Below are positions 48,125 through 64,000 of a stretch of 64,000 nt of DNA, one piece after another (the stretch's first letter is position 1; each line of letters starts with the position of its first letter). Under the pieces are notes generated by a model. The model was not told the origin of the DNA. It saw only the letters and a program-made list of their open reading frames with translations, and did no database searches. The position numbers were made by a program, and so were the translations under genes. This DNA comes from Ectothiorhodospira lacustris (GTDB lineage Bacteria > Pseudomonadota > Gammaproteobacteria > Ectothiorhodospirales > Ectothiorhodospiraceae), in the NCBI RefSeq assembly GCF_022227845.1, contig NZ_JAJNQN010000002.1:186001-250000 (forward strand), given 5' to 3'.

Positions 48125-50068
48125 TCAAGCCCCTGGCGCGCTCAGATCCGGGGCATATACCCGGACCCGATCGGCGCCACCCTGCTTGGCGTGGTACATG
48201 GCGATGTCGGCATGCTGCGCCAGCTCCCGGCTGTCCCCGCCATGCTCGGGATAAAAGGCGATGCCGATGCTGGTGGAGACACTCAGCTCCAGCCCGTTGA
48301 TGTGGAACGGTTCCTGGAGGGACTGCCGGATGTTTTCCGCCACCATCAGGGCATGCTCCATCTGCCGGATCTCCGGCAGCATGACGATGAACTCGTCGCC
48401 GCCGATACGGGCCACCATGTCGGCTTCACGCACGGAGGACACCAGACGGCGCGCCACCTGCTGCAGCACCAGATCGCCGACGGCATGGCCATGGGTGTCA
48501 TTGATCGGCTTGAACTTATCCAGATCGAGGAACATCAGGGCCAGCATCCTGCCCACGTCCCGTGCCCTGCCCATGGCCTGGTCCAGGTGACTGAACAGCA
48601 AGGCCCGGTTGGGCAGGGCGGTGAGCCCATCATGATGGGCCATGTGCATGATCCTGACCTCGTCCTGCTTGCGCACAGTGATATCGTGGGCGATACCCAG
48701 CATGCCGATGATGGTCCCGTCCTTGTCAAACAGGGGAGAGGCATTGGTGACATGCCAGCGCCAGTCGGCGGCACCGGCACCATACCGTACCCGATATTCC
48801 TGCCCGCTCTGCTTGCTTCGGGTGGCCAGCAGCCGCTCCAGAAAGGCCTGACAGGCAGGCAGGTCGTCGGGATGCACGATGGCCGAGAAATGGCCGCCCA
48901 GGAAATCTTCCGGCTCCTGTGCCAGGAGCTCGCGGATGTTGGGTGAAAGGTACTGGAAAATACCATCCAGATTCAGGGTATAGATGACGTCGTTGGCGTC
49001 CTCGACGAAGGTCCGGAATTTCTCCTCGTTGATGCGCAGTTGTGTCTCGGCGGCCTTGCGCCGGGTGATGTCGTTCCAGGTTACATGCAGCAGCGGTCGT
49101 TCCTCATACTGAATGGCCGTCAGCATGAGCAGGGCGTCGAAGGGCTGCCCATCTCCACGCAGACATTGCCATTCGCATTCATGCCCGCCCAGGGTCAGGG
49201 TCTGACGTCGCATGTCCCTGGCGTGGTCGATGGACGGACGGCCATCGGGTTGCGTCGGCGACGTGAAATCGGTCAGCGGTCGACCGATGAGCTGCTCGGG
49301 TTGCTGCAGGTGAAACAACGCCAGAGCCGCCGGATTGGCCGCGGTGAAAAAACCGGCCTGATCCATCAGGGTCAGCGGCTGACGGGATTCCTCGAACAGG
49401 ATGCGAAAGCGACGCTCACTGGCGGCAAGGATCTGCCCCGTGCGTTCGTGAGTCATCACGATCACGCCGAGGGCCAGCAGGATCATGGCCAGCAACCCCG
49501 CCTGAAAGGTCAGCACTTGCAAGGCGTTGGCCTGCAGGATGCTTGTCATCCTGTCCATGCTCCCCAGGCCCGCCATGATCGCCCGGATGCCGAGCAGAAC
49601 CAGGAGTACCGCCAGGCCGATGACGATGATGACCTGTCCGCGCCCCGGTGTATCGTGACGATTGCGCAGCACCATGAACAGGATCACGACCGTCTGACAC
49701 GACAGGAGTATGGCCACCAGGATGACTCGGCCCGGAAGGTTGTCCAGCAGGGACAAAAGCCCCATCAGCATGATGGGCAGCGGAACCCAAAGGATCCAGC
49801 GGGGCAATGGTCGCTGATAGAATCGTTGAAACCCCTCGCCAACCAGGGCCAGCCAGGCGGCCACCATCACGTTGGATGCCACCAGCAGGAGGGGGTGACC
49901 GGCATGGGCATGCCAGATGAAGCCCAGGTAGGCACCGGCATTGACCAGCGCCGCCAGGGACCAAGGTCCCATGGCGGCGTGTCCGGGCCGATCGGCCATG
50001 GACACCATGGCCACCGCCAGCAGAATGTTGGTCAGTGCAATGATCAGGAATAGTGTCGGGATGTCCAT
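48125..50068 (-). CDS. Membrane PAS-PAS-GGDEF diguanylate cyclase
   Basis: This 647-residue protein has about six to seven N-terminal membrane helices (residues 1-205), two PAS domains (about 215-335 and 345-465, joined by TRRKAAETQLRINEEKFRTF) and a C-terminal GGDEF domain with the intact motif GGDEF (556-560) and an RxxD site (READ) five residues before it. It should make c-di-GMP under control of a membrane or PAS-bound signal. No EAL domain. It lies on the opposite strand between the two cobQ copies. Confidence 0.9.
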   Translation of the reverse strand: MDIPTLFLIIALTNILLAVAMVSMADRPGHAAMGPWSLAALVNAGAYLGFIWHAHAGHPLLLVASNVMVAAWLALVGEGFQRFYQRPLPRWILWVPLPIMLMGLLSLLDNLPGRVILVAILLSCQTVVILFMVLRNRHDTPGRGQVIIVIGLAVLLVLLGIRAIMAGLGSMDRMTSILQANALQVLTFQAGLLAMILLALGVIVMTHERTGQILAASERRFRILFEESRQPLTLMDQAGFFTAANPAALALFHLQQPEQLIGRPLTDFTSPTQPDGRPSIDHARDMRRQTLTLGGHECEWQCLRGDGQPFDALLMLTAIQYEERPLLHVTWNDITRRKAAETQLRINEEKFRTFVEDANDVIYTLNLDGIFQYLSPNIRELLAQEPEDFLGGHFSAIVHPDDLPACQAFLERLLATRSKQSGQEYRVRYGAGAADWRWHVTNASPLFDKDGTIIGMLGIAHDITVRKQDEVRIMHMAHHDGLTALPNRALLFSHLDQAMGRARDVGRMLALMFLDLDKFKPINDTHGHAVGDLVLQQVARRLVSSVREADMVARIGGDEFIVMLPEIRQMEHALMVAENIRQSLQEPFHINGLELSVSTSIGIAFYPEHGGDSRELAQHADIAMYHAKQGGADRVRVYAPDLSAPGA

Positions 50069-50268
50069 GTCAGCTTTCCAAGGCCGTGACCCGAGCGATC
50101 ATCGGTACCTGATGATTGAAAACTCAAATGCCCTGCAGCGGCGATACTGCGGCAACCGATCGATAAAGGCAAAAGCGCACTTCATCACACGGCGCCCGTT
50201 TGGGTACCATCAGGTATCATCAAACTCCGGATGCTCCGGCCATCACTGACGGACAATCAATCCAGCGG

Positions 50269-51825
50269 ATGCCAAAAATCCATTTTTCTCCCTGCGGCGA
50301 CAGCCCGGCCCGCGCCCGCATCCTCATGATCCAGGGCACCAGCGCCGACGTGGGCAAGAGCCTGCTGGTGGCGGGCCTGTGCCGGGCCTACACCCGCCGG
50401 GGCCTGACCGTGCGGCCCTTCAAGGCCCAGAACATGAGCAACAACGCCGCCGTCACCATCGATGCGGACGCCCCGCCGGACCCGGGCGGCGGCCCCGCCC
50501 GAGGGGAGATCGGCCGTGCCCAGGCCCTGCAGGCCCTGGCCTGCGGCGCCCCTTGCTCGGTGCACATGAATCCGGTCCTGCTCAAACCCCAGAGCGATCT
50601 GACCAGTCAGGTGGTGCTGCGCGGCCATGTGCTCGGGAACTGGGCCGCCGCGGACTACCAGGACCTCAAGCCCGGCCTCATGCCCGCCGTCCTCGACAGC
50701 CTGCAACGTCTGGCCGCCGAGGCGGACTTGGTGCTGGTGGAAGGGGCCGGCAGCGGCGCCGAACGCTATCTGCGCGCCCGGGACATCACCAACATGGGGC
50801 TGGCGGAAGCGGCGGATATCCCCGTGGCCCTGCTGGGGGAGGACGCCCGGGGCGGCATGACCGCCTCGGTGCTGGGGGCACACCTGCTGTGGACCGCCTC
50901 GGAACGGGGCCGGGTGAGCGGCTACATCGTCAATCGCTTCCGTGGCGACCCGCGGATTTTCGATCCCGCCCGCGAGGACATGACCGGGGCTACCGGCTGG
51001 CCCTGCCTGGGCCTGGTACGCTGGTTCGACGGCGCCGCCCGGCTGGCCCAGGAGGATTCCCTGGCCCTGGAGCAGCGCCATGCCCGCCCGGGGCCGGGTC
51101 TGCTGATCGCCGTGCCCCGGCTGTCCCGCATCGCCAACTTCGACGACCTGGACCCGCTGGCGGCAGAGCCGGGGGTGAACCTACGCTGGGTCAACCCCGG
51201 CGAGCCCATCCCCCGGGCCGCGGACGTGATCCTGCTGCCCGGCTCCAAGGCCACCCGCACCGACCTGGGGATGCTGCGGCGGGAGGGCTGGGACATCGAC
51301 ATCCTGGCCCACGTGCGCCAGGGGGGCGGCGTGGTGGGGCTGTGCGCCGGCTACCAGATGCTGGGCAGGGTGGTGCGGGACCCCCAGGGTCTGGAAGGTC
51401 CGCCCGGCGACACGCCGGGCCTGGGGCTGCTGGATCTGGAGACCACCATCACCCGGGACAAGCGCCTGCTGGACCTGGATCGGCTGGACCGGCGCAGCGG
51501 CCAGCGGGTGCAGGGCTACGAGATGCACATGGGACGCACCACGGGGCCGGGACTGGCCCGACCCTGGCTCATGCTGGATGAGGGGCCGGAGGGGGCGGAG
51601 TCCGCCGATGGCCGGGTCATGGGGGCCTATGTGCATGGCCTCTTTGCCGGGGACGGATTCCGCAGCCACTGGCTCAAGCGCATGGGGGGCGCGGCCGGCG
51701 ACCTGCACTACGCCCGACAGACCCAGGCCACCCTGGACGCCTTGGCGGCGCAGCTGGAGGAGGACCTGAACCTGGATCAACTCTGGAACATCAGCCGCCC
51801 CATGGGCGCACCACCCCCGCCATGA
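50269..51825 (+). CDS. cobQ: Cobyric acid synthase paralogue, copy 2
   Basis: This protein of about 518 residues is very similar to copy 1 (GTSADVGKSLLVAGL; FKAQNMSNNAAVT; VEGAGSGAE; glutaminase nucleophile in VVGLCAGYQMLG). The conserved GDIDRGG is replaced by GEDARGG (about residues 189-195), and the following segment differs (MTASVLGAHLLW). The start at ATG 50269 lacks a strong ribosome site; the frame is open further upstream. It is coupled to the TcuA-like gene by an ATGA overlap. It may have a changed substrate or amidation pattern, or simply be a drifting duplicate. Confidence 0.88.
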   Translation: MPKIHFSPCGDSPARARILMIQGTSADVGKSLLVAGLCRAYTRRGLTVRPFKAQNMSNNAAVTIDADAPPDPGGGPARGEIGRAQALQALACGAPCSVHMNPVLLKPQSDLTSQVVLRGHVLGNWAAADYQDLKPGLMPAVLDSLQRLAAEADLVLVEGAGSGAERYLRARDITNMGLAEAADIPVALLGEDARGGMTASVLGAHLLWTASERGRVSGYIVNRFRGDPRIFDPAREDMTGATGWPCLGLVRWFDGAARLAQEDSLALEQRHARPGPGLLIAVPRLSRIANFDDLDPLAAEPGVNLRWVNPGEPIPRAADVILLPGSKATRTDLGMLRREGWDIDILAHVRQGGGVVGLCAGYQMLGRVVRDPQGLEGPPGDTPGLGLLDLETTITRDKRLLDLDRLDRRSGQRVQGYEMHMGRTTGPGLARPWLMLDEGPEGAESADGRVMGAYVHGLFAGDGFRSHWLKRMGGAAGDLHYARQTQATLDALAAQLEEDLNLDQLWNISRPMGAPPPP

Positions 51826-53216
51826 ACGACGTCCTGGTCATCGGTGGCGGCATCGCCGCCTTCTGTGCCGCCCTCGCCGCCCGCCGGGCCGGTGCCTCGG
51901 TGCAACTGGTGGACAGCGCCCCCCGTCACCTGCGAGGGGGCAACGCCCGTCACTCCCGCAACTTGCGCCTGGTCCACGACACGCCCTCTCCCCTGTTCCC
52001 GGGTCGTTATACCGCGGCGGAGTTTCTCACCGACCTGCGCCGGGTCAGCGGCGGCCACATGGATGAAGACCTTGCCCGCCTGATGGCGGAACGCTCCCGG
52101 GAACTGCCCGACTGGCTGCAGGCCCAGGGGGTGGGATTCCAGCCCACCAGTGGCGGCATGATCCCCTGGTCCTGCAAGACCGCCTTTTTCCTGGGCGGCG
52201 GCAAGGCCATGATCAACGCCCTCGGCCGCACCGCCGAGGACCTGGGTGTGGAAATCCTGCATGACACGGAAGTGCTGGATGTGCAGCTCCAGGCCGCCGA
52301 TACCCATCACCTCCCGGCCCGCCGAGGACATGAATCACTGACCCTGTCGGCCCGCACCGTGGTGATCTGCAGCGGCGGCTATCAGGCCAACCCCGCGGCC
52401 CTGTCCCGCACCTGGGGCGAGTCGGCCGCCGGTTTCCTGGTCCGGGGTACGCCCCATGTCCGGGGTGAGATCCTGCTGTCCCTGTTGGCACAGGGTGCCC
52501 TGCCCGCCGGTGTCCCCGGGGCCTGTCATCTGGTGGCGGTGAATGCCATGGCCCCCGCCGCCGACGGCGGTATCGTCACCCGGGTGGACGGCATGCCCTG
52601 GGGCCTGGTGGTGGATCGGGACGGACGCCGTTTTCAGGATGAAGGGGCGGAGATCACCCCGCGCCGCTATTCCTTCTGGGGCCGCCGGGTGGCCCGGCTG
52701 CCCGGTGCCAGGGCTCACCTGATCCTGGACACGGCGGGACTGCGCCGGGCCCCGCCCGCCATCTATCCCACCCGCCGGGCGGATACCCTGGAGGGGCTGG
52801 CCCGGGCACTGGACCTGAACCCGGATATCCTGCGGGAGACGGTCGACCGCTACCATGGCGCCCTGCGGCCCGATGGCCCGGAGGACGGCCATACCGAGGG
52901 CCTGGACCCACCCAAGACGCGCTGCGCCCTGCCCCTGAACACCCCGCCCTTCCATGCCTGGACCATGGCCCCCGGCATCACCTTCACCTGCCACGGCCTG
53001 AAGGTGGATACCCGGGCCCGTATCCTGATGGCCGATGGCGAACCCTGCGATGGCCTGTATGCGGCGGGCATGATCATGGCGCCCAGCATCCTGGGCACCG
53101 GCTATGTGGCCGGCGCCGCCCTGACTGTGGGTGCCGTGTTTGGCCGCATCGCCGGGAAGGAAGCCGCCCACCGGGTCCTGAAACTGCACCCCGAGGCAGA
53201 AAAGTGTCTGAATTGA
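51822..53216 (+). CDS. TcuA-like flavoprotein, probable CobZ N-terminal half
   Basis: This 464-residue FAD-dependent oxidoreductase has the dinucleotide fold DVLVIGGGIAAFCAALAARR, the fumarate-reductase-like region TSGGMIPW and DRDGRRFQDEGAE, and a C-terminal FAD-closing segment (GTGYVAGAALTVGAVFGR). It is closest to tricarballylate dehydrogenase TcuA. In Rhodobacter capsulatus a TcuA-TcuB-like fusion, CobZ, oxidises precorrin-3A to precorrin-3B in place of CobG. Placement inside a cob operon, coupled to cobQ and to the TcuB-like gene, supports the CobZ role over tricarballylate use. Confidence 0.8.
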   Translation: MNDVLVIGGGIAAFCAALAARRAGASVQLVDSAPRHLRGGNARHSRNLRLVHDTPSPLFPGRYTAAEFLTDLRRVSGGHMDEDLARLMAERSRELPDWLQAQGVGFQPTSGGMIPWSCKTAFFLGGGKAMINALGRTAEDLGVEILHDTEVLDVQLQAADTHHLPARRGHESLTLSARTVVICSGGYQANPAALSRTWGESAAGFLVRGTPHVRGEILLSLLAQGALPAGVPGACHLVAVNAMAPAADGGIVTRVDGMPWGLVVDRDGRRFQDEGAEITPRRYSFWGRRVARLPGARAHLILDTAGLRRAPPAIYPTRRADTLEGLARALDLNPDILRETVDRYHGALRPDGPEDGHTEGLDPPKTRCALPLNTPPFHAWTMAPGITFTCHGLKVDTRARILMADGEPCDGLYAAGMIMAPSILGTGYVAGAALTVGAVFGRIAGKEAAHRVLKLHPEAEKCLN

Positions 53217-54355
53217 GCCCCCCGGATTCTTCCGCAAGTCTCGCCGAGGCCCGCCGGGTGATGAACCTGTGCAACGTCTGCAGCTACTGCACCGGCTACT
53301 GCGCCGTGTTCCACGCCTCGGAACAGCGCCCGGACCTCACCCGGGACGACCTGCATTACCTGGCCAACCTGTGCCACAACTGCCGGGCCTGCTGGTATGC
53401 CTGCCAGTATGCCCCGCCCCACGAATTCGCCATCAACGTGCCCGCCACCCTGGCCCGGGTTCGCCACGACAGCTATCGCCGTTACACCTGGCCCAGCGCC
53501 TTCGCCGCCCTGCTGGCCCGCAGCGGTCCGGCCACCCTCATGGTGAGCCTGGTCGCCACCCTGCTGATCCCGCTGCTCACGTTGATACTGGTACCCTGGG
53601 ACACCCTGTTTGCCGTACACCGGGAGGCTGGGGCCTTCTATCAGGTGATCCCCTGGGGGGTGATGACCACCGTGGCCCTGGTCACCCTGGGCACATCGGT
53701 GCTGGCCCTGGGGATCGGGGTAGCCCGTTTCCGGCGGGACATCGGCCGGGGCGCACCACCGGCCTCATCCTGGTGGCGGGCGCTGCCCCGGGCGGCGGCG
53801 GACCTGCTCACCCTGCGCAATCTGGACGGCGGGGGGGGCGGCTGCAATGACGTGGACGGGCGCTTTACCCAATGGCGACGGGGCTTTCACCATGCCCTGT
53901 TCTACGGCTTCCTGCTGTGCCTGGCCGCCACCACGGTGGCGGCCGGCTATCATCACCTTCTCGCCTGGGAGGCACCCTACCCCGTTTTTAGCCTACCGGT
54001 GTTGCTGGGCACGCTGGGCGGTATGGGCATGATGGTGGGAGCGGCCGGGCTGGTGTGGGTGAAACGGCGAGGGGATCCGGCGCCCACGGCGGCGGAAACC
54101 CTGCCGGCGGACTACGCCCTGCTGGGCCTGCTGTTCGCGGTGGCCGCCACCGGCCTGATGCTGCTGGCCCTGCGGGAGACCGCGACCATGGGTCTGTTGC
54201 TGGCCCTGCACCTGGGTACGGTACTGGGCTTCTTCCTGCTGGTGCCCTACAGCAAGTTCGTGCACGGAGCCTACCGGGGGGCGGCACTGCTGCGCCGTGC
54301 CATGGAGCAACACCACGGACCCGGAACCGCGGGTAAAGAAACGGATAAGGAATAA
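53204..54355 (+). CDS. TcuB-like Fe-S/heme membrane protein, probable CobZ C-terminal half
   Basis: This 383-residue protein begins with two cysteine clusters for [4Fe-4S] centres (CNVCSYCTGYC about residues 23-33; CHNCRACWYACQYAPP about 62-77). About six membrane helices follow, with histidines suited to heme binding (HHALFYGF; GYHHLL). This is the TcuB architecture and that of the C-terminal half of CobZ. It starts with GTG 13 bases inside the TcuA-like gene, so the two are translated together and likely form one complex that passes electrons from the flavin to the membrane. Confidence 0.82.
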   Translation: MSELSPPDSSASLAEARRVMNLCNVCSYCTGYCAVFHASEQRPDLTRDDLHYLANLCHNCRACWYACQYAPPHEFAINVPATLARVRHDSYRRYTWPSAFAALLARSGPATLMVSLVATLLIPLLTLILVPWDTLFAVHREAGAFYQVIPWGVMTTVALVTLGTSVLALGIGVARFRRDIGRGAPPASSWWRALPRAAADLLTLRNLDGGGGGCNDVDGRFTQWRRGFHHALFYGFLLCLAATTVAAGYHHLLAWEAPYPVFSLPVLLGTLGGMGMMVGAAGLVWVKRRGDPAPTAAETLPADYALLGLLFAVAATGLMLLALRETATMGLLLALHLGTVLGFFLLVPYSKFVHGAYRGAALLRRAMEQHHGPGTAGKETDKE

Positions 54356-54377
54356 GTACTCACATGCCGTTCGATAC

Positions 54378-54722
54378 CTATGACGGCCGCCACACCTCGT
54401 AGCCGCAACTCCAGCAATGGTGCAAAGCTTCGCGGCCGGCACCCTCAGCCCGTTCCCGCAGCCGCCCCTTGACCGCGTACAGTCCCCGCAGGGTGCAACG
54501 GGGGCATTTCAGGGCATCCCCCTCCTGCTCCAGGGTCTCGGAACTTGCGCCGGCCTTGTCTTCGATGACGGCTTCACCGACCATGTCCGCCGACAGGCGG
54601 TTCAGATCGTCCCTGAGGGCGACGATGAGAGCATTGGCCTCGGGATTGCCGTCACCGACGGCGACCTGCAATTCATCCAGACGACGCTGCAGGGCGGAGA
54701 GGCGGTTGCGGATATCGCTCAT
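54378..54722 (-). CDS. Zinc-ribbon hypothetical protein
   Basis: This 114-residue protein has an N-terminal coiled-coil-like helix (IRNRLSALQRRLDELQVAV) and a C-terminal zinc ribbon made of CPRC (near residue 74) and CWSC (near residue 104). AGGAG precedes the ATG. It is convergent with the TcuB-like gene and lies downstream of cobA, separated by REP-like palindromes. I do not recognise a function; the fold suggests binding to protein or nucleic acid. Confidence 0.7.
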   Translation of the reverse strand: MSDIRNRLSALQRRLDELQVAVGDGNPEANALIVALRDDLNRLSADMVGEAVIEDKAGASSETLEQEGDALKCPRCTLRGLYAVKGRLRERAEGAGREALHHCWSCGYEVWRPS

Positions 54723-54828
54723 GGGATCTCCTGGATGCGTTGGGCCGGCACTGATTGTTGAACGGCGGCATGCCGTGGGCAAGCCTTTCCTTGTCGGGGC
54801 TCAGATTTAATCCTTGTCCGGACACCGC

Positions 54829-55052
54829 CCTGGATTCCCGCTTACGCGGGAATGACGGATTCCCATTGACGGTTGACTCTCCTGCGAAAGCCCTCTGCCG
54901 TCACTCTCGAGAAAACCCACTGCCGTCACTCCCGCGAAAGCGGGAGCCCAGAATCTTGATCCCACCGGATTCCCGCTTGCGCGGGAATGACGGCATCGGC
55001 GACGTGCTTATGCCCATCAAGGCCCCTGGATTCCAGGGTGCGCGGGAATGAC
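54829..55052. repeat. Cluster of REP-like palindromes
   Basis: At least three clear copies of a GGATTCCCGC...GCGGGAATGACGG palindrome lie here: about 54831-54858, 54923-54955 (inverted) and 54964-54993. Degenerate ones occur at 54898-54920 and 55024-55052. The 350-base gap between the zinc-ribbon gene and cobA contains no gene; these elements fill most of it. Confidence 0.85.
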
Positions 55053-55072
55053 AATGGCTTCCCGCCGGGAAC

Positions 55073-55939
55073 TCACGCCCGATCGGAGGCGGTTTCCACC
55101 GCCTGGGTCACCACCTGCCGCAGGGTGTGATGACAGCGGACGATTTCGCCCAGCACCACGATGGCCGGCGCCTCCAGCCCCTCGCGGCGGATGGTCTCCA
55201 GCAACTCGCCCTTGGTGGTGATCACCACCCGCTCCTCCAGGGTGGTGGCGGAGGCGACCACCGCCGCCGGGAGCGTGTCGGCCATCCCGCCCTGCCCCAA
55301 ACCGTCCAGGATGAAGGGCAGGTTGCGCAGGGACATGTACAGGATTACCGGCTGATTCAGGCGCCCCACCAGGGTCCAATCGATGCCGTCCGGCGTGGGC
55401 CGACTGCCGGCACCATGGCCGGTGGCCAGGAACAGGGCTTGGTTGACTCCGCGGCAGGTGGCCGGGATGCCCACGGCGCTCAGCCCCGCCAGCCCCGAGG
55501 TCAGCCCCGGGATGACCCGATGGGGGATGCCCTGGGCCACCAGTTCGGCCACCTCCTCGCCGCCACGACCGAAGATGAAGGGATCCCCGCCCTTGAGCCT
55601 CACCACCCGGAAGCCCCGCCGAGCCTGATCCACCAGGGTGGCGGTGATGTCGTCCTGATGGGTGGAGGGCCTGCCGCCACGCTTACCGGCAAAGATGCGC
55701 ACCGCATCCGGACGGGCCAGGGCCAGGGTGCGGGGATCGATGAGGGCGTCATGCACCAGCACGTCCGCCTGCAACAGGGCCGACAGGGCGTGCAGGGTCA
55801 GCAGCCCGGGATCACCGGGGCCGGCCCCGACGATCCACACCTCCCCCTGCCGCAGCCGGGGCATGCCGGGCAGCAGGGCCCCCAGGGTGTCCAGGGCGGC
55901 CTCCGGGGACAGGGGGCGAGCGGGTGAGACTTCGTTCAT
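55073..55939 (-). CDS. cobA: Uroporphyrinogen-III C-methyltransferase
   Basis: This protein of about 288 residues makes precorrin-2, the first committed step to B12 and siroheme. It has the SUMT motifs VWIVGAGPGDPGLLTL, VLVHDALID, RLKGGDPFIFGRGGEE and the conserved IPGLTSGLAGLSAVGIP. It stands alone, without the CysG oxidase/chelatase part. ATG 55939 has GGAG seven bases upstream; a GTG at 55966 overlapping the cobM stop is the alternative. Last gene of cobL-cobM-cobA. Confidence 0.93.
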   Translation of the reverse strand: MNEVSPARPLSPEAALDTLGALLPGMPRLRQGEVWIVGAGPGDPGLLTLHALSALLQADVLVHDALIDPRTLALARPDAVRIFAGKRGGRPSTHQDDITATLVDQARRGFRVVRLKGGDPFIFGRGGEEVAELVAQGIPHRVIPGLTSGLAGLSAVGIPATCRGVNQALFLATGHGAGSRPTPDGIDWTLVGRLNQPVILYMSLRNLPFILDGLGQGGMADTLPAAVVASATTLEERVVITTKGELLETIRREGLEAPAIVVLGEIVRCHHTLRQVVTQAVETASDRA

Positions 55940-55962
55940 CAGAATGCTCCGGGGCTGTCCGC

Positions 55963-56727
55963 TCACGACCCGTAACCGGGGCGATAACGGCGGACATAGT
56001 CCGTGTTGTACAGGGCACTTTCGCGAAAATCCTCACTGCCCAGGGCCGGCCCCACCAGAATCAGGGCGGTACGCTCGATGGGATCGGACCGGTGCATGGC
56101 CACGATGCCGGACAGGGTTCCCCGCAGCACCGTCTGATCCGGCCAGCTGGCACGGGCGACGATGGCCACCGGGCAGTCCTCGCCGTAGTGCGGCATCAGG
56201 GCCGCCACCACGTCCTCCAAACGGTGGATGGCCAGATGGATGGCCAGGGTGGCACCGGTGCGGGCGAAGTTTTCCAGGGTCTCGCCGGGCGGCATGGCGG
56301 AGGCACGGCCAGACATGCGCGTGATCACCAGACTTTGGGCCACTTCCGGCACCGTCAGTTCCCGCCCCAGCACGGCGGCGGCGGCGGCAAAGGCAGGCAC
56401 GCCGGGAGTGAGGGTGTAGGGAATGCCCCGTCGATCCAGACGGCGCATCTGCTCGGCCACGGCGCTGTAGACGGACAGATCGCCGGAATGCAGGCGGGCC
56501 ACGTCCTCCCCGGCCTCGTGGGCACGGACGTATTCCGCCTCAATGGCATCCAGATCCATCGGTGCCGTGTCCACCAGCCGCGCCCCGGGTGGGCAGTGTT
56601 CCAGCAGCTCCGCCGGCACGATGGAGCCGGCGTAGAGACACACGGGACAACGGGCCAGCAGGCGCGCGCCCCGCAGGGTGATCAGATCCGCCGCGCCGGG
56701 ACCGGCGCCGATGAAGTGTACGGTCAT
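55963..56727 (-). CDS. cobM: Precorrin-4 C11-methyltransferase
   Basis: This protein of about 254 residues methylates C11 of the corrin ring. It has the family pattern [45 protein letters not shown] and [15 protein letters not shown] 56727 is preceded by AGAGGA; a TTG three bases upstream is less likely. It follows cobL after 3 bases. The sequence alone does not separate CobM from the anaerobic counterpart CbiF. Confidence 0.93.
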
Positions 56728-56730
56728 CAA

Positions 56731-57981
56731 TCAGTTCCTCTTTTCCACCGCCCATTGCACCACGGGCATGGCAGGACGAAAACCGTGCAGGCTGCCGACG
56801 GGTTCCAGACGTTCCACCGATAGACGAGTCAGGGTGCCGCCGTAACGCTGCCAGGCCCGCTGGATGACCTGCTCCGTCTCCAGCACCACCACGTTCGCCA
56901 CCAGGCGCCCCCCGGGGGCCAGTGCGGCCCAGCACTGGTCGATGACGGCCTCGTCGCGGGCACCGCCGCCGATGAAGATCGCATCCGGCCGGGGCAGATC
57001 CTTCAGCACCTCGGGGGCACGACCGACACGCACCTCCAGCCGGGGGACACCCAGGGCGACGGCATTGCGGGCCGCGCGGGCGGCCCGCTCCGGATGGCTG
57101 TCCACGGCAATGGCACGGGTGCCGGCGTGGGCCAGCAGCCATTCGATGCCGATGGAACCGGAACCCGCCCCCACGTCCCAGAGCAGTGCGCCGGCGTGGG
57201 GGCGCAGACTGGACAGGGTGACGGCGCGGATCTCCCGCTTGGTGATCTGACCATCGTGTTCGAACCACTCATCCGGCAGCCCCGGGGCCAGGGGGATGAT
57301 GGGGGCATCCGCCGCCGCCAGTACCTCCAGTGCCAGCAGGTTCAGGGGCTGGACGTCCTGGAGATCGAAATCCCGCGCCGTGACATGACGCCGGCGTTCC
57401 CGTGGACCACCCAGGGCCTCCAACAAGGTCACGGCGGACTCACCGAAACCCCACCGGGTCAGGGCTTGGCAGATCTGCCCCGGCGAGTCCTGGTCGGCGG
57501 TGAGCACGAACAGGCGTGCCCCCGGCTGCAGGGCCGGCCGCAGGGTCTCCAGGGGACGGCCGGTGAGGGACACCACCGTACAGTCCTGCTGGGCCCAGCC
57601 CAGGCGGGCGGCGGCCAAGGACACGCTGGAGGGGTGAGGCAGGCAGCACATCTCCCGCGCCGGTAGATGCCGCAGCAGGGTGGTGCCCACACCGAAGAAA
57701 AAGGGATCACCGGAAGCCAGCACCACCACCGGCAGTCCTCGCCGGGCGAGGATCCGGGGCAGGGTGTCGGACAGGGGCGAGGCCCAGGACAGTGCCTCTC
57801 CCCGGATCAGGGGTGCGGCCAGGGTCAGATGACGTGTGCCGCCGACCACCAGGACGGCCGCCCCGACCAGCGCGCGGGCAGCGGGGCTCATGGCCTCGAC
57901 GCCCTCCTCTCCCAGACCTATGATGCTCAACCAGGGACCAGGGGGATCGCCGGCCGGCTGATGGACGTGTTCACCGGTCAT
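56731..57981 (-). CDS. cobL: Precorrin-6Y C5,15-methyltransferase (CbiE-CbiT fusion)
   Basis: This 416-residue protein fuses a CbiE-like tetrapyrrole methylase (LSIIGLGEEGVEAMSP; VLASGDPFFFGVGTTLL) to a CbiT-like SAM methyltransferase (LLWDVGAGSGSIGIEWLLAH; AIFIGGGARDEAVIDQC). Together they methylate C5 and C15 and decarboxylate the C12 side chain. The linker contains DEWFEHDGQITKREIRAV, typical of the CbiT start. First gene of the cobLMA unit, divergent from cobK. Confidence 0.95.
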   Translation of the reverse strand: MTGEHVHQPAGDPPGPWLSIIGLGEEGVEAMSPAARALVGAAVLVVGGTRHLTLAAPLIRGEALSWASPLSDTLPRILARRGLPVVVLASGDPFFFGVGTTLLRHLPAREMCCLPHPSSVSLAAARLGWAQQDCTVVSLTGRPLETLRPALQPGARLFVLTADQDSPGQICQALTRWGFGESAVTLLEALGGPRERRRHVTARDFDLQDVQPLNLLALEVLAAADAPIIPLAPGLPDEWFEHDGQITKREIRAVTLSSLRPHAGALLWDVGAGSGSIGIEWLLAHAGTRAIAVDSHPERAARAARNAVALGVPRLEVRVGRAPEVLKDLPRPDAIFIGGGARDEAVIDQCWAALAPGGRLVANVVVLETEQVIQRAWQRYGGTLTRLSVERLEPVGSLHGFRPAMPVVQWAVEKRN

Positions 57982-58067
57982 TGCAATCCCTGCCCCGGCA
58001 ACATCCCGCGCCCTGCTCCGCCGGCCAAGGGGCTGGGCCTATCCATCCGTTCTGTCTGAAACGATCC

Positions 58068-58847
58068 ATGACTCACATGCCCCTGCACATCCTGATCCTC
58101 GGCGGTACCGGAGAAGCCATGCAACTGGCCCGGGCCCTGGAAGGTGATGCACGCTTTGCCCCCACCTACTCGGTGGCCGGGCGCACGCAAAATCCCCGCC
58201 TGCCGGACCTGCCCTGCCGCAGCGGCGGCTTCGGGGGCCCCGACGGGCTGGCCGACTACCTGGGCAGGGAGGCCATCGAGGTACTGGTGGATGCCACCCA
58301 CCCCTTTGCCGACCGCATGTCCACCCACGCCGTCGTGGCCGCGGCACGGACAGGCGTCGCCCTGCTGGCCCTGCGGCGCCCGGCCTGGATGCCCGGCCCG
58401 GAGGATCACTGGCACGGCGTGCCGGACATGGTCGCTGCGGTGCAGGCCCTGGGTACCCGGCCCCGGCGGGTATTTCTTACCATCGGGCAACTGGAACTGG
58501 CCCCCTTTTGCGAGGCGCCCCGGCACCGTTACATCATCCGCAGCGTGGATCTGCCCGCGGTGCGTCCACCGGACTGCCTGTGCATCACTGACCGCGGCCC
58601 CTTCCGGCTGGAAGATGAACTGCGCCTGCTGCAACAGCACCGTATCGACGCCCTGGTGACCAAGAACTCCGGCGGCGAGGCCACCTACGCCAAGCTGGAG
58701 GCGGCACGCCGGTGCGGCGTGGAAGTGATCATGGTGGAACGCCCATGGGTCCCGCCGGCCCCCGCCGAGGTGCCGGACCCGGAGGCTGCCCTGAGCTGGC
58801 TGGGCGCGCACTACGTCCGTTCCCGACCCACGCTACGGGGTGTGTAG
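58068..58847 (+). CDS. cobK: Precorrin-6A reductase CobK/CbiJ
   Basis: This 259-residue NADPH-dependent reductase shows LHILILGGTGEAMQLARAL, VDATHPFADRMS and TKNSGGEATYAKLEAA, all characteristic of the family. The start is ATG 58068 (58077 also possible), giving the normal length. It is the only gene of the ring-building group on the plus strand, standing between cobL and cobJ. Its last 37 bases overlap the end of cobJ tail to tail, so both C-termini share the same DNA. Confidence 0.9.
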   Translation: MTHMPLHILILGGTGEAMQLARALEGDARFAPTYSVAGRTQNPRLPDLPCRSGGFGGPDGLADYLGREAIEVLVDATHPFADRMSTHAVVAAARTGVALLALRRPAWMPGPEDHWHGVPDMVAAVQALGTRPRRVFLTIGQLELAPFCEAPRHRYIIRSVDLPAVRPPDCLCITDRGPFRLEDELRLLQQHRIDALVTKNSGGEATYAKLEAARRCGVEVIMVERPWVPPAPAEVPDPEAALSWLGAHYVRSRPTLRGV

Positions 58848-59575
58848 ATCCAGGGATCCCGGCCCGTGCGGGGGATCAGCCGGGTCTCGGCGTTGCCGAC
58901 GATCACCAGGGTGCGCATGTCCGCCTGATCCGGTCTGGCCTGCGCCAGCGTGGTCACTTCCACCTGCTCTTCCGGACGACTCACGGCTCGGGCAAAGATC
59001 ACTGGCACATGCCCGGGCAGGTGGCGACGCAGCAGCGCCAGGGCCTCGCCCAGCTGCCAGGGTCGCGCCTTGGAAATGGGGTTGTAGAAGGCCATGGCAA
59101 AACCACCCCGGGCGGCACATTCCAGGCGATGCAGGATGACGGTCCAGGGCTTGAGGTTGTCCGACAGGGACATGACGCAGAAATCATTCCCGAACGGCGC
59201 CCCCAACCGGGCACCGGCAGCCAGTACCGCGGACACCCCCGGATGAACCGTCACCTCCAGATCACGCCAGCCGGGTTCACCATGATCCATGGCCTCGAAT
59301 ACCGCGGCCGCCATGCCGAACACGCCGCCGTCGCCGGATGAGACCACGGCCACCCGCGCACCCTCGGCGGCCAACTGCAGGGCCAAGCGGGCGCGCATGA
59401 TTTCCTCGCGATTGTCCGAGGCGTGGATCCGCTGGCCGCCCTCGGCGGCCACCCGCTCCACATAGGGGACATAGCCCACCAGGTCCGTGGCCTGGGCCAG
59501 GGCGTGAGCGGCGCGAGGGCAACGCAGGTCCTCGGCGCCGGGGCCAAGCCCGATGACATCCACACGACCGCTCAT
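58811..59575 (-). CDS. cobJ: Precorrin-3B C17-methyltransferase
   Basis: This 254-residue protein catalyses C17 methylation and ring contraction. It has VDVIGLGPGAEDLRCPRAAH, VGYVPYVERV, VVSSGDGGVFGMAA, HPGVSAVLAAGARLGAPFG and MAFYNPISKAR. It is a stand-alone CobJ/CbiH without a fused CbiG domain. The ATG at 59575 overlaps the cobI stop (ATGA). The last 12 residues lie in DNA shared with cobK on the other strand. Confidence 0.94.
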   Translation of the reverse strand: MSGRVDVIGLGPGAEDLRCPRAAHALAQATDLVGYVPYVERVAAEGGQRIHASDNREEIMRARLALQLAAEGARVAVVSSGDGGVFGMAAAVFEAMDHGEPGWRDLEVTVHPGVSAVLAAGARLGAPFGNDFCVMSLSDNLKPWTVILHRLECAARGGFAMAFYNPISKARPWQLGEALALLRRHLPGHVPVIFARAVSRPEEQVEVTTLAQARPDQADMRTLVIVGNAETRLIPRTGRDPWIYTPRSVGRERT

Positions 59576-60306
59576 CGAACCCCCTGTCTGCCGGGTACCA
59601 GCACGATGGTGAAATAGGGAGCGGGCTGGTCTTCCGGGCACTCGGCAAGGCGCGCCACGCGTGCGCCTTCCATGGTCCCCCGCTCCACCAGCATGGCCCG
59701 CTCCAGTAGACCGGCCCGGGCCAGGGCGGCGCGGATACGGGGAAGATTACGGCCCACCTTCATGAAGACGGCAGCATCGGTACGACCCAGGTGAGACACC
59801 ATGGCATCCTCCGAAAGGGTGCCGGGAATCACCGTGAGTACGTCATCGCCATGGGTGATGGGGGTGTCGGCCTGGGTCCAGCATCCGCTCATGCCGCTGA
59901 TGCCCGGAACCACCTGCGCCGGGAAGCGATGGGACAGGCGATCATGCAGGTACATGTAAGAACCATAGAGGAAGGGATCACCCTCGCAGATCACCGCCAC
60001 ATCCCGCCCGCCCATCAGGCATTGAGCCACCTCTGCCGCCGCCTGGTCGTAAAAGTCGCTCATGTCCCGGGCATAACGGGGATCATGGATGGAGACCTCG
60101 GTGGTGAAAGGGTACTCCAGTCTCAGGATCTGCTGCTCCGGGCGCAGGTGGGGGCCAGCGATCCCCAGGGCTTGGCCGGTGCGACCCTGTTTGGCAAAGG
60201 TGGCCACCACCGGCGCCGCCTGCAGCAGACGCAGGGCCTTGAGGGTGATGAGCTCCGGGTCACCGGGACCCAAGCCGATGCCGAACAAGGTGCCGGAACC
60301 ACTCAT
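59572..60306 (-). CDS. cobI: Precorrin-2 C20-methyltransferase
   Basis: This 244-residue enzyme has [37 protein letters not shown] and [20 protein letters not shown], the signatures of CobI/CbiL. It converts precorrin-2 (or its cobalt form) to the C20-methylated product. It is coupled by 4-base overlaps to cobH upstream and cobJ downstream, making a tight cobHIJ operon. Confidence 0.94.
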
Positions 60307-60935
60307 TCCTGCTCACTCGCCAGGGCATTGACGGCCGCCACGGTCATGGCGCTGCCACCCAAACGACCGTGGACGATCACGGATTCCAGACCCGGATACC
60401 CGGCCAGGGCTTCCTTGGACTCGGCGGCGCCCACGAAACCCACCGCCATGCCGATCACCAGGGCCGGCCGAGGCGCCCCCGCATCGATCAGCTCCAGCAG
60501 GTGAAACAGGGCGGTCGGCGCATTACCGATGGCCACCACGGCTCCGTCGAGCCGCTCACCCCACAGGTCCAGGGCCGCAGCGGAGCGGGTATTGCCGATC
60601 CGCCGCGCCAGTTCGGGGACACGGGGGTCATCCAGAGTGCAGATGATCTCGTTGTCCGCCGGCAACCGGGCGCGGGTAATGCCGTGGGCCACCATCTTGG
60701 CATCACAAAGAATGGGCTTGCCCGCCAGCAGGGCCGCCCTTCCCGCCTTGGCGGCATCGGACGTGAAGACCACCTGGGGCGCCAGTTCCACCATGCCGCA
60801 AGCATGAATCATGCGCACCACCACCCGGGCCTCGTCGGCACTGAAACCGTCCAGACGGGCCTCGCCGCGGATGGTGGCGAAGGATTTACGATAGATGGCC
60901 GCGCCATCCTTGATGTAGTCGTAGGTATGGGACAT
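60303..60935 (-). CDS. cobH: Precorrin-8X methylmutase
   Basis: This 210-residue enzyme moves the C11 methyl group to C12, giving hydrogenobyrinic (or cobyrinic) acid. It has [13 protein letters not shown] with the catalytic histidine near residue 43, [19 protein letters not shown] and [17 protein letters not shown] 60935 gives the conserved N-terminus [14 protein letters not shown]. First gene of cobHIJ; its promoter must lie in the 233-base gap shared with the divergent B12-sensor gene. No cobalamin riboswitch is seen there. Confidence 0.94.
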
Positions 60936-61060
60936 GGATCGAGTGTACTGCGTGAAGGGCAATGCCGGGGCGACCGGAGCGGGTGGGTAAGCTTAGCGGG
61001 TCGGGGTCCACGGGGCAATGCCCGGCTTGCCCGACACCGGCCATCGGCGGCGCCGGCTTT

Positions 61061-61091
61061 TTGAAGCCCGCGCATGCAAGCGCACTATAAT
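61061..61091 (+). promoter_or_regulatory. Promoter of the B12-sensor/cyclase unit
   Basis: A consensus TATAAT (61086-61091) is preceded by TTGAAG (61061-61066) at 19 bases, a little long but acceptable. It predicts a leader of about 70 bases before the ATG at 61169. Confidence 0.5.
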
Positions 61092-61168
61092 CAGGCATAC
61101 GATCCTGTCGCCCCCGATCCCGTCAACACTGACCAAGGCATGATCTTCAGGCCCGGAAAACCCTCACC

Positions 61169-62296
61169 ATGCCGACCACTCCAGCCATGCCGCCGATACC
61201 ATGCTCACAGGTTCCCAAAGGCACCGCGGACCGTTATCGGCGTCACAGGAACCGCATCGCCAGCCTGGTTTCACGCACGATGGCCATGCATCCCCGACAT
61301 GATGAATTCAGCGGCGGGCACGGCGTGCGTTTGCTGGAATGCAATCATCGCAATCACGCGGCCTTCATGGCCGAGGTGCTGACGGCCAATGACTTTCAGC
61401 TGCTGGCGGAGACCCTGCCCTGGGTGTATGCCGCCTACCATCACCAGGGCGTGCATTTTGACTATTTTCCCGCCCAGTTCGAAGCCTGGACGCAGGCCAT
61501 TCGCCTCACGCTCAGCGAAGACGATGCGGAACATCTCCTGCCCGTGTACCGCTGGATGGCCGACATTCATCCCGCGACCATCAAGGCCGCCCTGTCTCAT
61601 CAGGCACGCAGGCTCCACGTCCCCGACCGGTACCGGGAGGAATACACCTACATCACTGCCAACCTGCTCCAGGGAAATTACCCGGATATCATCCGCCGTT
61701 GCAGAGAACTGCTGAGCCGCGGCATGTCCTACGGCGACATCCTGCAGGAACTGTTCTATCCCGCCATGGTGGATGTCGGGGCACGATGGGAAGACGGTGA
61801 GATTTCAGTGTCCATGGAGCACCAGACCACCGCCATGGCCTACGGCATCCTGTCTTCCCTTTACCATGATCTACCCTTTCCCGACATCCATCGCGGACAC
61901 GCCCTGGTCAGCCCCGTTTCAAATGAGTTTCACGAAATGGGCGCCTGGATGCTGGCAACCAGCCTGGAACTGGATGGGTGGGACATCACCTTGCTGGGCG
62001 GCGATACACCCCGGGAACATCTGATCACGACGGCGGTGCAGCAACGCCCCAGATTTGTGGCCCTCTCGGTGACCCTGATCAGCAACATCCATGAAGCCCG
62101 ATGTACCATCGAATACCTGCGGCAGGCCCTTGGACATGGCAGCACCACCCGCATCCTGATCGGTGGGCAGGCATTTCTCATGGCCCCCCGCCTGGCCGCA
62201 TCCGTGGGGGCGGATGCTCTCCTGGAAAGTTGTGATGCGGCGGTCCGATGGGCACGAACCCTGGAGGCGGAAACCGATGAACCCACCAGTACTTGA
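61169..62296 (+). CDS. Cobalamin-binding light-sensor-like protein (CarH-type B12 domain)
   Basis: This 375-residue soluble protein has three parts. Residues about 50-160 form an unknown helical domain (FQLLAETLPWVYAAYHHQGV). Residues about 165-235 are a four-helix B12 cap with W207, nine residues, then E217-H218: the W-x9-EH signature of the CarH/LitR photoreceptors. Residues about 243-365 are a Rossmann B12-binding domain with EFHEMG (253-258) for the axial histidine and LLGGDTPREHL. No MerR or other DNA-binding domain is present, so the output is probably through the overlapping GGDEF partner. It could alternatively be an AerR-like antirepressor or a corrinoid carrier. Confidence 0.82.
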   Translation: MPTTPAMPPIPCSQVPKGTADRYRRHRNRIASLVSRTMAMHPRHDEFSGGHGVRLLECNHRNHAAFMAEVLTANDFQLLAETLPWVYAAYHHQGVHFDYFPAQFEAWTQAIRLTLSEDDAEHLLPVYRWMADIHPATIKAALSHQARRLHVPDRYREEYTYITANLLQGNYPDIIRRCRELLSRGMSYGDILQELFYPAMVDVGARWEDGEISVSMEHQTTAMAYGILSSLYHDLPFPDIHRGHALVSPVSNEFHEMGAWMLATSLELDGWDITLLGGDTPREHLITTAVQQRPRFVALSVTLISNIHEARCTIEYLRQALGHGSTTRILIGGQAFLMAPRLAASVGADALLESCDAAVRWARTLEAETDEPTST

Positions 62297-63281
62297 CCCC
62301 ACCCTGCAGCCTGAACTGGCCCGAGCACTTCACAGCTATGTCATGGAATCCGGTCGCCTGGTGGTAGTGGAAGTGGACAGTGACGGCCGAATCAGGGATG
62401 CCAATGTCACGTTCCGCTCCCGCTTTGCCGGGTTTGCGGATGTGCGCGGCGAATCCCTGTCCCGGTTCCTGGCCAGCGGCGACGAGATCCCCGACATCGA
62501 ACCGGGACTTGCCCACCGCACTGCCATCGCCCGGATATTCAATACCGTCATGGGGGGAGAAAACTACCTGTTCCATGCCTATCCGCTCAACGCCCACACA
62601 CTACTGATCGGGGAGCCAGCCAAGACGGAAGACAGCGACGTGATCGGCCGCATGGGCAGCCTGGCGCTGGAAATGTCCCGCCTGGTCAGGGATCTTCGCA
62701 AGGCCAATCACGACCTGGCCATGGCCAACGAGCTGAATCAGCAACTGGCCCGCACCGACGCGCTGACGCACCTGGCCAATCGCCGGTATTTCATGGAGCG
62801 CCTTCAACAGGGCGTGGTCCAGGCTCAGAGTCGCCAGCATGCCCTGTCCATCCTGATGATGGACCTGGATCATTTCAAGCAGATCAACGACAGTTTCGGT
62901 CATTCCACCGGTGATGCGGTGCTGGCCGCCTTTGCGGAGCTGCTGCGCGCGCTGGTCAGGATTTCAGACCTGCCCGGGCGACTGGGGGGAGAGGAATTCG
63001 GACTTTACATGTTTGACGCCCATCGCCACGTAGCCGCGGCGGTGGCAGAACGCATCCGGGCAAGTACTTGGGAGCTTCGTCCCAGCGGGCTGGACCATCG
63101 GCTCGGTGTCAGTATCGGTATCGCCATGCTTGAGCCCGAAGAAGATGCGGAGGCACTGATGAGACGGGCCGATGCCGCGCTTTATCAAGCCAAGAATCAG
63201 GGCCGTAATCGGATCGTCATCGCAGGACCGGGGGCGGAGCAGGCGGCCGGCCGGGAAGAGAATGCATCAGGGAAGGAGTGA
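62277..63281 (+). CDS. PAS-GGDEF diguanylate cyclase paired with the B12 sensor
   Basis: This 334-residue protein has an N-terminal PAS-like domain (about 18-115; VVVEVDSDGRIRDANVTFR), a helical linker (about 125-160) and a GGDEF domain with GGEEF at 237-241 and an RxxD inhibitory site (RISD, 228-231) at the correct five-residue spacing. It should make c-di-GMP with product inhibition. The ATG lies 20 bases inside the cobalamin-binding gene behind GGAGG, so the two are coupled and probably form one sensory unit. No membrane segments. It ends 228 bases before the antenna genes, which run towards it. Confidence 0.9.
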   Translation: MNPPVLDPTLQPELARALHSYVMESGRLVVVEVDSDGRIRDANVTFRSRFAGFADVRGESLSRFLASGDEIPDIEPGLAHRTAIARIFNTVMGGENYLFHAYPLNAHTLLIGEPAKTEDSDVIGRMGSLALEMSRLVRDLRKANHDLAMANELNQQLARTDALTHLANRRYFMERLQQGVVQAQSRQHALSILMMDLDHFKQINDSFGHSTGDAVLAAFAELLRALVRISDLPGRLGGEEFGLYMFDAHRHVAAAVAERIRASTWELRPSGLDHRLGVSIGIAMLEPEEDAEALMRRADAALYQAKNQGRNRIVIAGPGAEQAAGREENASGKE

Positions 63282-63382
63282 CATGACCGACCGCACAGAC
63301 CGCGGACGATAAAAATGTTCAGGAAGGGGGTTGCAATACCCGAGAGAATTGGTCAGTATTAGATCCAGACTCCCAAACGGAA

Positions 63383-63470
63383 GGTGGAGGAGCCTGGCGG
63401 TTCTCCGAATGATTGGCCTCTGCAAAAGTCACAATCATTCGTCGATCGAACCGACAGGTACTCCTCCACC
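63383..63470. repeat. Long nested inverted repeat after the antenna genes
   Basis: Three nested complementary pairs line up: GGTGGAGGAG (63383-63392) with CTCCTCCACC (63461-63470), CGGTTC (63398-63403) with GAACCG (63448-63453), and CGAATGATTG (63406-63415) with CAATCATTCG (63432-63441). Together they form an 88-base hairpin with a 16-base loop and small bulges. A second hairpin (CTGCACT/AGTGCAG, 63470-63486) follows. It lies between convergent genes. It may stabilise the antenna mRNA, terminate both transcripts, or be a MITE-like insertion. Confidence 0.75.
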
Positions 63471-63508
63471 TGCACTGCTAGTGCAGTACCGCTACTGCAA
63501 AGACCTTC

Positions 63509-63649
63509 TTAGTAGAAGGGTCTCCACATGAACACCAGGAAGTGAGCGGCGGCAGCCAGAACCATGAACACCGTGAAGGTGGTCTTGAACTGCTCGTGGA
63601 ATTCCTTGGCTTGTTCTTCGGTCAGACCGGAGATGCTGTTGTCATTCAT
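63509..63649 (-). CDS. Light-harvesting complex beta polypeptide
   Basis: This 46-residue membrane polypeptide is too short for most gene finders. It begins SGLTEEQAKEFHEQF after a short polar start and has one membrane helix with the bacteriochlorophyll-binding histidine in AAAAHFLVFMWRPFY, the hallmark of antenna beta chains. GAGAGGAC precedes the ATG. It lies 14 bases after the alpha gene in the same transcript. Sequence alone does not settle LH1 (puf) versus LH2 (puc); the alpha partner suggests the peripheral LH2 type. Confidence 0.9.
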   Translation of the reverse strand: MNDNSISGLTEEQAKEFHEQFKTTFTVFMVLAAAAHFLVFMWRPFY

Positions 63650-63663
63650 GATCTAGTCCTCTC

Positions 63664-63864
63664 TTACTCGGAAGCTTCGACGGCGCTGGCGTCAAAGGTC
63701 AGCGGGTTGTAGCTGTCGTTGGCGTACACGAAGGCGTGGACAGCCAGGGCAACGACCAGAACAGCCATCAGAATGGGCATCAGCCAGGTGCCGGGATTGA
63801 CCACCAGCCACAGCTTCCAGTCGTCTTTGGGGTTGCTGGGCTTGCTTGCTCTGTATTCGCTCAT
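63664..63864 (-). CDS. Light-harvesting complex alpha polypeptide
   Basis: This 66-residue antenna alpha chain has a charged N-terminus, then KLWLVVNPGTWLMP and one membrane helix with the bacteriochlorophyll-ligating histidine in VVALAVHAFVYA. The C-terminal tail is longer than usual (NDSYNPLTFDASAVEASE). The NP-x-T-W-L start resembles LH2 (puc) alpha chains more than LH1. AGAGGG precedes the ATG. It comes before the beta gene, opposite to the usual beta-alpha order. Confidence 0.9.
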   Translation of the reverse strand: MSEYRASKPSNPKDDWKLWLVVNPGTWLMPILMAVLVVALAVHAFVYANDSYNPLTFDASAVEASE

Positions 63865-64000
63865 TGATATTACCCTCTTGGTTTAAGCACGGATCCCTCT
63901 CGAGATCCGAACGTTCTTGCAAACATCAACTTCCGATGCAGCCCCGTCACGGTTCAGGGCCGGAAACCGGATCCTTGAAACCAACCGTAAGACTCGCTCT
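63865..64000 (-). other. Antenna operon leader, incomplete
   Basis: This is the untranslated region or promoter area upstream of the alpha gene. CGGATC and GATCCG (63890-63909) can form a six-base stem just before the ribosome site. No TGT-N12-ACA box is seen; the promoter probably lies beyond the window edge. Confidence 0.4.

Follow-up and report, generated by a model that had tools for sequence, protein, structure and literature searches.

The window analysed here is a 64,000-nt stretch of the Ectothiorhodospira lacustris genome (contig NZ_JAJNQN010000002.1, positions 186,001 to 250,000), towards the end of which two overlapping forward-strand genes encode a candidate B12 photosensor and a diguanylate cyclase. 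The features of the locus, in window coordinates, are as follows.

61169..62296 (+): globin-B12 photosensor candidate, 375 aa; ORF with PF02607 and PF02310; best PDB relatives are photocobilins (8j2w/8j2x/8j2y)
61211..61594 (+): predicted N-terminal globin, photoglobin/phycobiliprotein-like, residues ~15-142; AlphaFold, Foldseek and profile match
61658..61861 (+): B12 helical cap, residues 164-231; PF02607
61787-61789 (Trp codon) and 61817-61822 (Glu-His codons) (+): G204-A-R-W207-E208 ... E217-H218 in the helical cap
61898..62218 (+): B12 Rossmann domain, residues 244-350; PF02310
61931-61933 (+): putative lower axial ligand H255 in the Rossmann domain; invariant in 21/21
62277..62296 (+): 20-nt overlap of sensor and cyclase genes, from the sequence
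62277..63281 (+): PAS-GGDEF diguanylate cyclase, 334 aa, ATG at 62277 and stop at 63281; PF00990, E 2.1e-46
62313..62612 (+): PAS-like domain, residues ~13-112; weak PF08448 match, E 0.0056, below cut-off
62673..62708 (+): core of the PAS-GGDEF linker helix, MSRLVRDLRKAN, residues 133-144; block conservation 0.89, proposed docking site
62751..63212 (+): GGDEF domain, residues 159-312; PF00990
62958-62969 (+): RxxD; motif check
62985-62999 (+): GGEEF; motif check

Both ORFs are intact. A previous sequence-only reading had described the first as a cobalamin-binding protein carrying W207-x9-E217-H218 and, in its Rossmann domain, 253-EFHEMG-258, overlapped by the second; residues, domains (Pfam; PF02607 E 2.5e-11, PF02310 E 1.6e-15) and overlap are all as it gave them. 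A GGAGG ribosome-binding-like site lies just 5' of the cyclase ATG, and in most relatives the two genes overlap by 4 nt; promoter and terminator scans gave results at chance level. In the cyclase, RISD precedes GGEEF, so that both the GG[D/E]EF active site and the RxxD inhibitory site are present, as previously described; the PAS call is weaker, drawing on the sub-threshold Pfam match plus alignment.

The sequence-only reading also noted that the sensor has no DNA-binding domain, and Pfam indeed finds no helix-turn-helix, but it overlooked a globin-fold domain within the ~145 residues that precede the B12 domains. A Pfam scan matched no family in this N-terminal region. Its AlphaFold model (pLDDT 91.7) has seven helices, and in Foldseek the highest TM-scores are reached with allophycocyanins (TMq 0.70 for 7sc7_AA) and with smURFP, which binds biliverdin (TMt 0.73 for 6fzn). 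All Foldseek E-values are 0.03 or higher (none < 0.001), and the top 50 matches are globins and phycobiliproteins; the predicted globin fold is thus called from the consistency of the matches, not from their E-values. Comparison with the photoglobin-like domains of other globin-B12 family proteins gave a profile-profile probability of 90%, and some of these proteins match the Phycobilisome Pfam model weakly. When the profile was built from just the 11 closest globin domains, no match was obtained in the PDB; the relationship emerged only from the wider family profile, profile-profile comparison and the structure model. Rather than a bare CarH module, the sensor is a standalone photocobilin-like protein that combines globin and B12 domains.

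The B12 domains were compared across 22 sensor family members, 21 of which are long enough for the Rossmann-domain sites to be counted. W207, E208, E217 and H218 are invariant (22/22), as is H255 (21/21), and E253 is kept in most. By alignment, all the adenosyl and cobalamin contacts named for CarH (W207, E217, H218, H255) are conserved, and because these residues are invariant, adenosylcobalamin (AdoCbl) is the likely ligand of the sensor. The family also carries the photocobilin B12 motifs (W-x9/10-EH, E/DxH). The published signature of light-responsive B12 proteins (SignatureFinder) consists of GxxW, EH, GxxH and GxxxP (PMC11796333). GxxW, EH and GxxxP are found in the E. lacustris sensor; in place of GxxH it has N252-E-F-H255, and across the family the first position of this element is N in 18/21 members and G in 1/21. 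The published survey may have missed the sensor family for this reason.

The 'full CarH-type signature' attributed to the sensor by the sequence-only reading does not hold up, because of this altered element and because the residue after the Trp differs. CarH/LitR proteins (TtCarH, 5C8D) share the W-x9-EH cap and the His lower ligand, but they have a MerR-type DNA-binding domain where the E. lacustris sensor has a globin N-terminus, and the likely output of the sensor is a cyclase. In TtCarH the Trp is followed by H132, which is the second His in the bis-His complex of the light state; at this position SasPcob has Gln, AbDPcob has Tyr, and the sensor family has Glu (E208) throughout. The CarH model NF052513 scores 55 bits against a 400-bit cut-off. 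A corrinoid methyl-carrier of a methyltransferase system is an extremely improbable identity: the sensor matches the NCBIfam MtgC model, but at 59.6 bits against a cut-off of 370 bits, on which scores an MtgC/MtbC identity was rejected. Moreover, the gene beside the sensor encodes a cyclase rather than a methyltransferase, and the protein carries a predicted globin domain and the adenosyl-contact motif.

The closest sequence relatives in the PDB are the photocobilins SasPcob and AbDPcob (62 bits each; CarH, 41 bits), and photocobilins are also the top PDB relatives by fold. The wider family profile, which includes other photoglobin-type members, scores up to 169 bits against photocobilins in the PDB. 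SasPcob (PDB 8J2W/8J2X) resembles the E. lacustris sensor in being a standalone globin plus B12 protein with an invariant Trp between the two chromophore sites; it differs in its reversed domain order and in Asp270, with tight biliverdin binding. We know of no cognate cyclase for SasPcob. AbDPcob from Acidimicrobiaceae (sensor PDB 8J2Y) is a B12-globin-GGDEF fusion in which light raises cyclase turnover more than 10-fold, and the isolated AbDGC is activated in trans by separate photocobilin domains (PMC10979010). The statement in the sequence-only reading that no B12-photoreceptor/diguanylate-cyclase pair had been characterised is therefore superseded. AbDPcob shares with the E. lacustris pair the W/EH and ExH-type motifs, a GGDEF output and a residue other than His after the Trp. 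It is a single polypeptide with B12 before globin, whereas E. lacustris has two genes, globin before B12, and a cyclase with a separate PAS domain and a distinctive linker. An arrangement with the B12 domain C-terminal has also been reported among photocobilins (PMC10979010).

In SasPcob, Trp296 touches both corrin and biliverdin, and Asp270 is the main biliverdin contact. Sequence alignments map these residues to W85 and N59 of the sensor; W85 is invariant in the family, whereas the Asp270-equivalent position is N, T, S or E, and D in 0/22 members. C58 was considered as a bilin-attachment Cys and ruled out, as it is not conserved in the family. Heme oxygenase of the PF01126 type was found in 0/9 Ectothiorhodospiraceae genomes tested, E. 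lacustris and other pair-holding Ectothiorhodospira included, and PHY-domain phytochromes are absent from the four Ectothiorhodospira tested. Any bilin function of the globin has probably been lost or altered, and the sensor is likely to be B12-only or to use another ligand. A complete two-chromophore photocobilin, with biliverdin on the globin extending the response to red light, is accordingly a highly unlikely alternative, even though the best TM-scores of the globin include biliverdin-bound smURFP, the Trp296 equivalent is kept, and three Chromatiaceae-type pair holders have heme oxygenase. AbDPcob likewise has a non-Asp residue (His) at the biliverdin contact, is still recognised as a photocobilin and binds some biliverdin. 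The Allochromatium heme oxygenase gene lies ~2 kb or less from a PHY-domain gene, which can account for its presence.

The sensor-cyclase pair is a real unit. Adjacent, intact pairs occur in 21 genomes of purple sulfur bacteria: six Ectothiorhodospira, 13 members of the Allochromatium family, one further Ectothiorhodospiraceae genome, in which the gene order is reversed, and one gammaproteobacterial MAG. Because W207, E217, H218 and H255 are invariant and the genes are adjacent in all 21 genomes, motif and pairing are more than chance. Two further genomes carry a truncated sensor, and there the cyclase is missing or fragmented. Sensor and cyclase divergence are correlated (Spearman 0.93, 0/2000 permutations), as co-inheritance predicts. 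Among 58 relatives, a cyclase ortholog (E<1e-50) was found in exactly the six Ectothiorhodospira with a close sensor and was absent from the four congeners that lack one. Of 369 genomes drawn evenly across the class, only that of E. lacustris was positive in a search; within the Allochromatium family, 20/146 genomes were.

The pair follows phototrophy, since all 23 holders have reaction-centre genes (PF00124), compared with 5/20 sampled non-holders from the Allochromatium family (within that family, 15/15 vs 5/20; Fisher p ~5e-6, a value that ignores phylogeny). This restriction fits a role in light sensing; it also fits a role in bacteriochlorophyll or B12 metabolism.

Among 12-residue blocks of the cyclase, conservation peaks at the linker helix MSRLVRDLRKAN (0.89), ahead of the GGDEF active-site block (0.85). 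A loose form of the linker motif occurs in 19/19 paired cyclases and in the divergent L007 cyclase, and in 0/13 of the other GGDEF proteins listed from the relatives' loci. From this pattern we infer that the PAS-GGDEF linker helix is a candidate docking site for the sensor; conservation of the linker could alternatively reflect cyclase dimerisation. A precedent is AppA, which contacts PpsR through a B12-type domain that binds the helix between two of the PAS domains of this partner (PMC9144470). AppA/AerR with PpsR/CrtJ (4HH3; PMC9144470) resemble the E. lacustris pair in combining a separate B12-type protein with a PAS partner, with contact on a PAS linker helix (by analogy in E. lacustris), but they lack a photocobilin globin and their partner is a transcription factor. 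The sensor falls outside the AerR/PpaA/AppA-SCHIC group, its partner being a PAS-GGDEF protein and not a PpsR/CrtJ-type repressor. A separate AerR-like B12 protein that lacks the W-x9-EH set is encoded elsewhere in the E. lacustris genome (G000:C23; L066:871-1902, +). The PAS-linker of the cyclase also resembles those of kinases beside other B12/globin genes, which is a hint only, as coiled-coil linkers look alike. That the two genes are merely co-transcribed, with the cyclase controlled by its own PAS-like domain and making no contact with the B12 protein, is quite unlikely: adjacency is kept while flanking genes change, sensor and cyclase decay in parallel, the linker conservation is specific to paired cyclases, and trans-activation is published for the related AbDPcob.

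The flanking genes carry less weight than was initially proposed. The pair does lie between a cob operon and antenna genes in the window, as the sequence-only reading described, but only E. shaposhnikovii shares this arrangement; none of the other holders has cob or antenna genes within the 8-10 kb examined. Because the linkage to cob or antenna (puc) genes is not conserved, the argument from neighbourhood was dropped, and these genes were rejected as functional partners. In other Ectothiorhodospira, siaABCD-like genes lie near the pair (at L024, L025 and L036, a cluster of SpoIIE phosphatase, DUF6272, SiaC and a GGDEF protein ~1.5-6 kb upstream), and in Allochromatium the pair is beside lapB, pyrF and a sugar-nucleotide transferase gene.

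Corrinoid or redox sensing has been proposed for some AerR/AppA-type regulators. That the sensor likewise responds to redox state or the supply of corrinoids, and not to light, and informs the cyclase of B12 status is unlikely here, although several observations suit this reading. The window encodes BchE (TIGR02026; 44691-46400, +; ~9 kb from the cob genes), the anaerobic B12-dependent bacteriochlorophyll cyclase, so that B12 status has a bearing on the synthesis of bacteriochlorophyll; restriction to phototrophs would follow equally; and the cob operon adjoins the pair in E. lacustris and E. shaposhnikovii. On the other hand, the adenosyl-packing W-x9-EH set is invariant and would not be needed by a pure corrin sensor, the cob linkage is not conserved, and an Rfam scan of window positions 50000-64000 gave no match, for example to a cobalamin riboswitch. 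With regard to ligand supply, AdoCbl is probably present in E. lacustris, because its genome scores above the cut-off for the AdoCbl-dependent ribonucleotide reductase TIGR02504, as do 6/7 holders in all. Cobalamin adenosyltransferases of the PF02572 and PF01923 types were found in none of six holder genomes (G000, G003, G006, G009, L022, L023); given the cob genes in the window and TIGR02504, a new type of adenosyltransferase is possible.

The best reading of the pair, held with moderate confidence, is a split photocobilin-type switch that places c-di-GMP under light control. AdoCbl would sit between the helical cap and the Rossmann domain of the sensor, with W207 and E217/H218 holding its adenosyl group, which in darkness would stabilise a particular conformation or oligomer. 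On exposure to green or blue light the Co-C bond would break, the adenosyl group would leave and the cap helix would move. The light state would probably be aquo/hydroxo cobalamin, as in photocobilins, rather than the bis-His form of CarH, because E208 replaces H132. The globin would pack on the corrin edge via W85, with tight biliverdin binding probably lost. The co-translated cyclase would receive the signal in trans, probably through docking of the sensor on its PAS-GGDEF helix, as AppA docks on PpsR, and in phototrophic purple sulfur bacteria light would thereby change c-di-GMP, whatever the direction of the effect.

A B12 photoreceptor/diguanylate cyclase system, including action in trans, is already known from AbDPcob. 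What is new here is that sensor and cyclase are two translationally coupled genes, that by alignment the biliverdin-binding Asp is missing from every family member and the GxxH element has been lost, that PF01126 heme oxygenase is not detected in pair-holding Ectothiorhodospira, and that the paired cyclases have in common a distinctive PAS-GGDEF linker helix of high conservation, a likely docking site. The E. lacustris locus is probably a split, phototroph-restricted photocobilin-diguanylate cyclase pair that is bilin-poor. If this is correct, a B12 photoreceptor acting on a separate cyclase would constitute a two-component module for green light whose parts are naturally separable; it would allow a direct test of how B12 photochemistry passes between proteins, a question that also applies to standalone photocobilins, and would connect light with the control of lifestyle by c-di-GMP in purple sulfur bacteria. 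It also raises the question of the role of the photocobilin globin in organisms in which heme oxygenase is not detected.

More tentatively, and with somewhat less than even confidence, purple sulfur bacteria may use a dedicated two-protein B12 light switch: a globin-B12 sensor, free of bilin or carrying a different ligand, would dock on the specific PAS-GGDEF helix of its co-translated cyclase, and related globin/B12 modules would be wired likewise to histidine kinases and GGDEF-EAL proteins.

Several related modules were observed. E. lacustris encodes a second globin-B12 protein (G000:C44; L035:11141-12274, -; 377 aa) with a weak Phycobilisome Pfam match, divergent from a gene for a PAS-PAS-GGDEF-EAL protein (L035:12424-14568, +); a similar arrangement occurs at L039 (G002). 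Three overlapping genes at L070:5497-7873 (-) encode a B12 protein with W-x9-EH, a histidine kinase and a standalone globin, an arrangement that resembles a split photocobilin connected to a kinase. At L056:602-3355 (+), a B12 protein, in which ER replaces EH in the motif, a standalone globin and a PAS-GGDEF protein are encoded by three consecutive genes, and at L067:3275-5626 (-) and L068:5273-7642 (+) fusion proteins combine a globin of the sensor type with several PAS domains and a histidine kinase. Together, these arrangements, from the same bacterial families as the pair, support the view that globin and B12 domains are exchangeable sensor parts for PAS-linked outputs. A globin-B12 protein is also encoded beside a histidine kinase (L034:9445-10548, -) in G029, a relative that has no reaction-centre genes; related modules are thus not confined to phototrophs.
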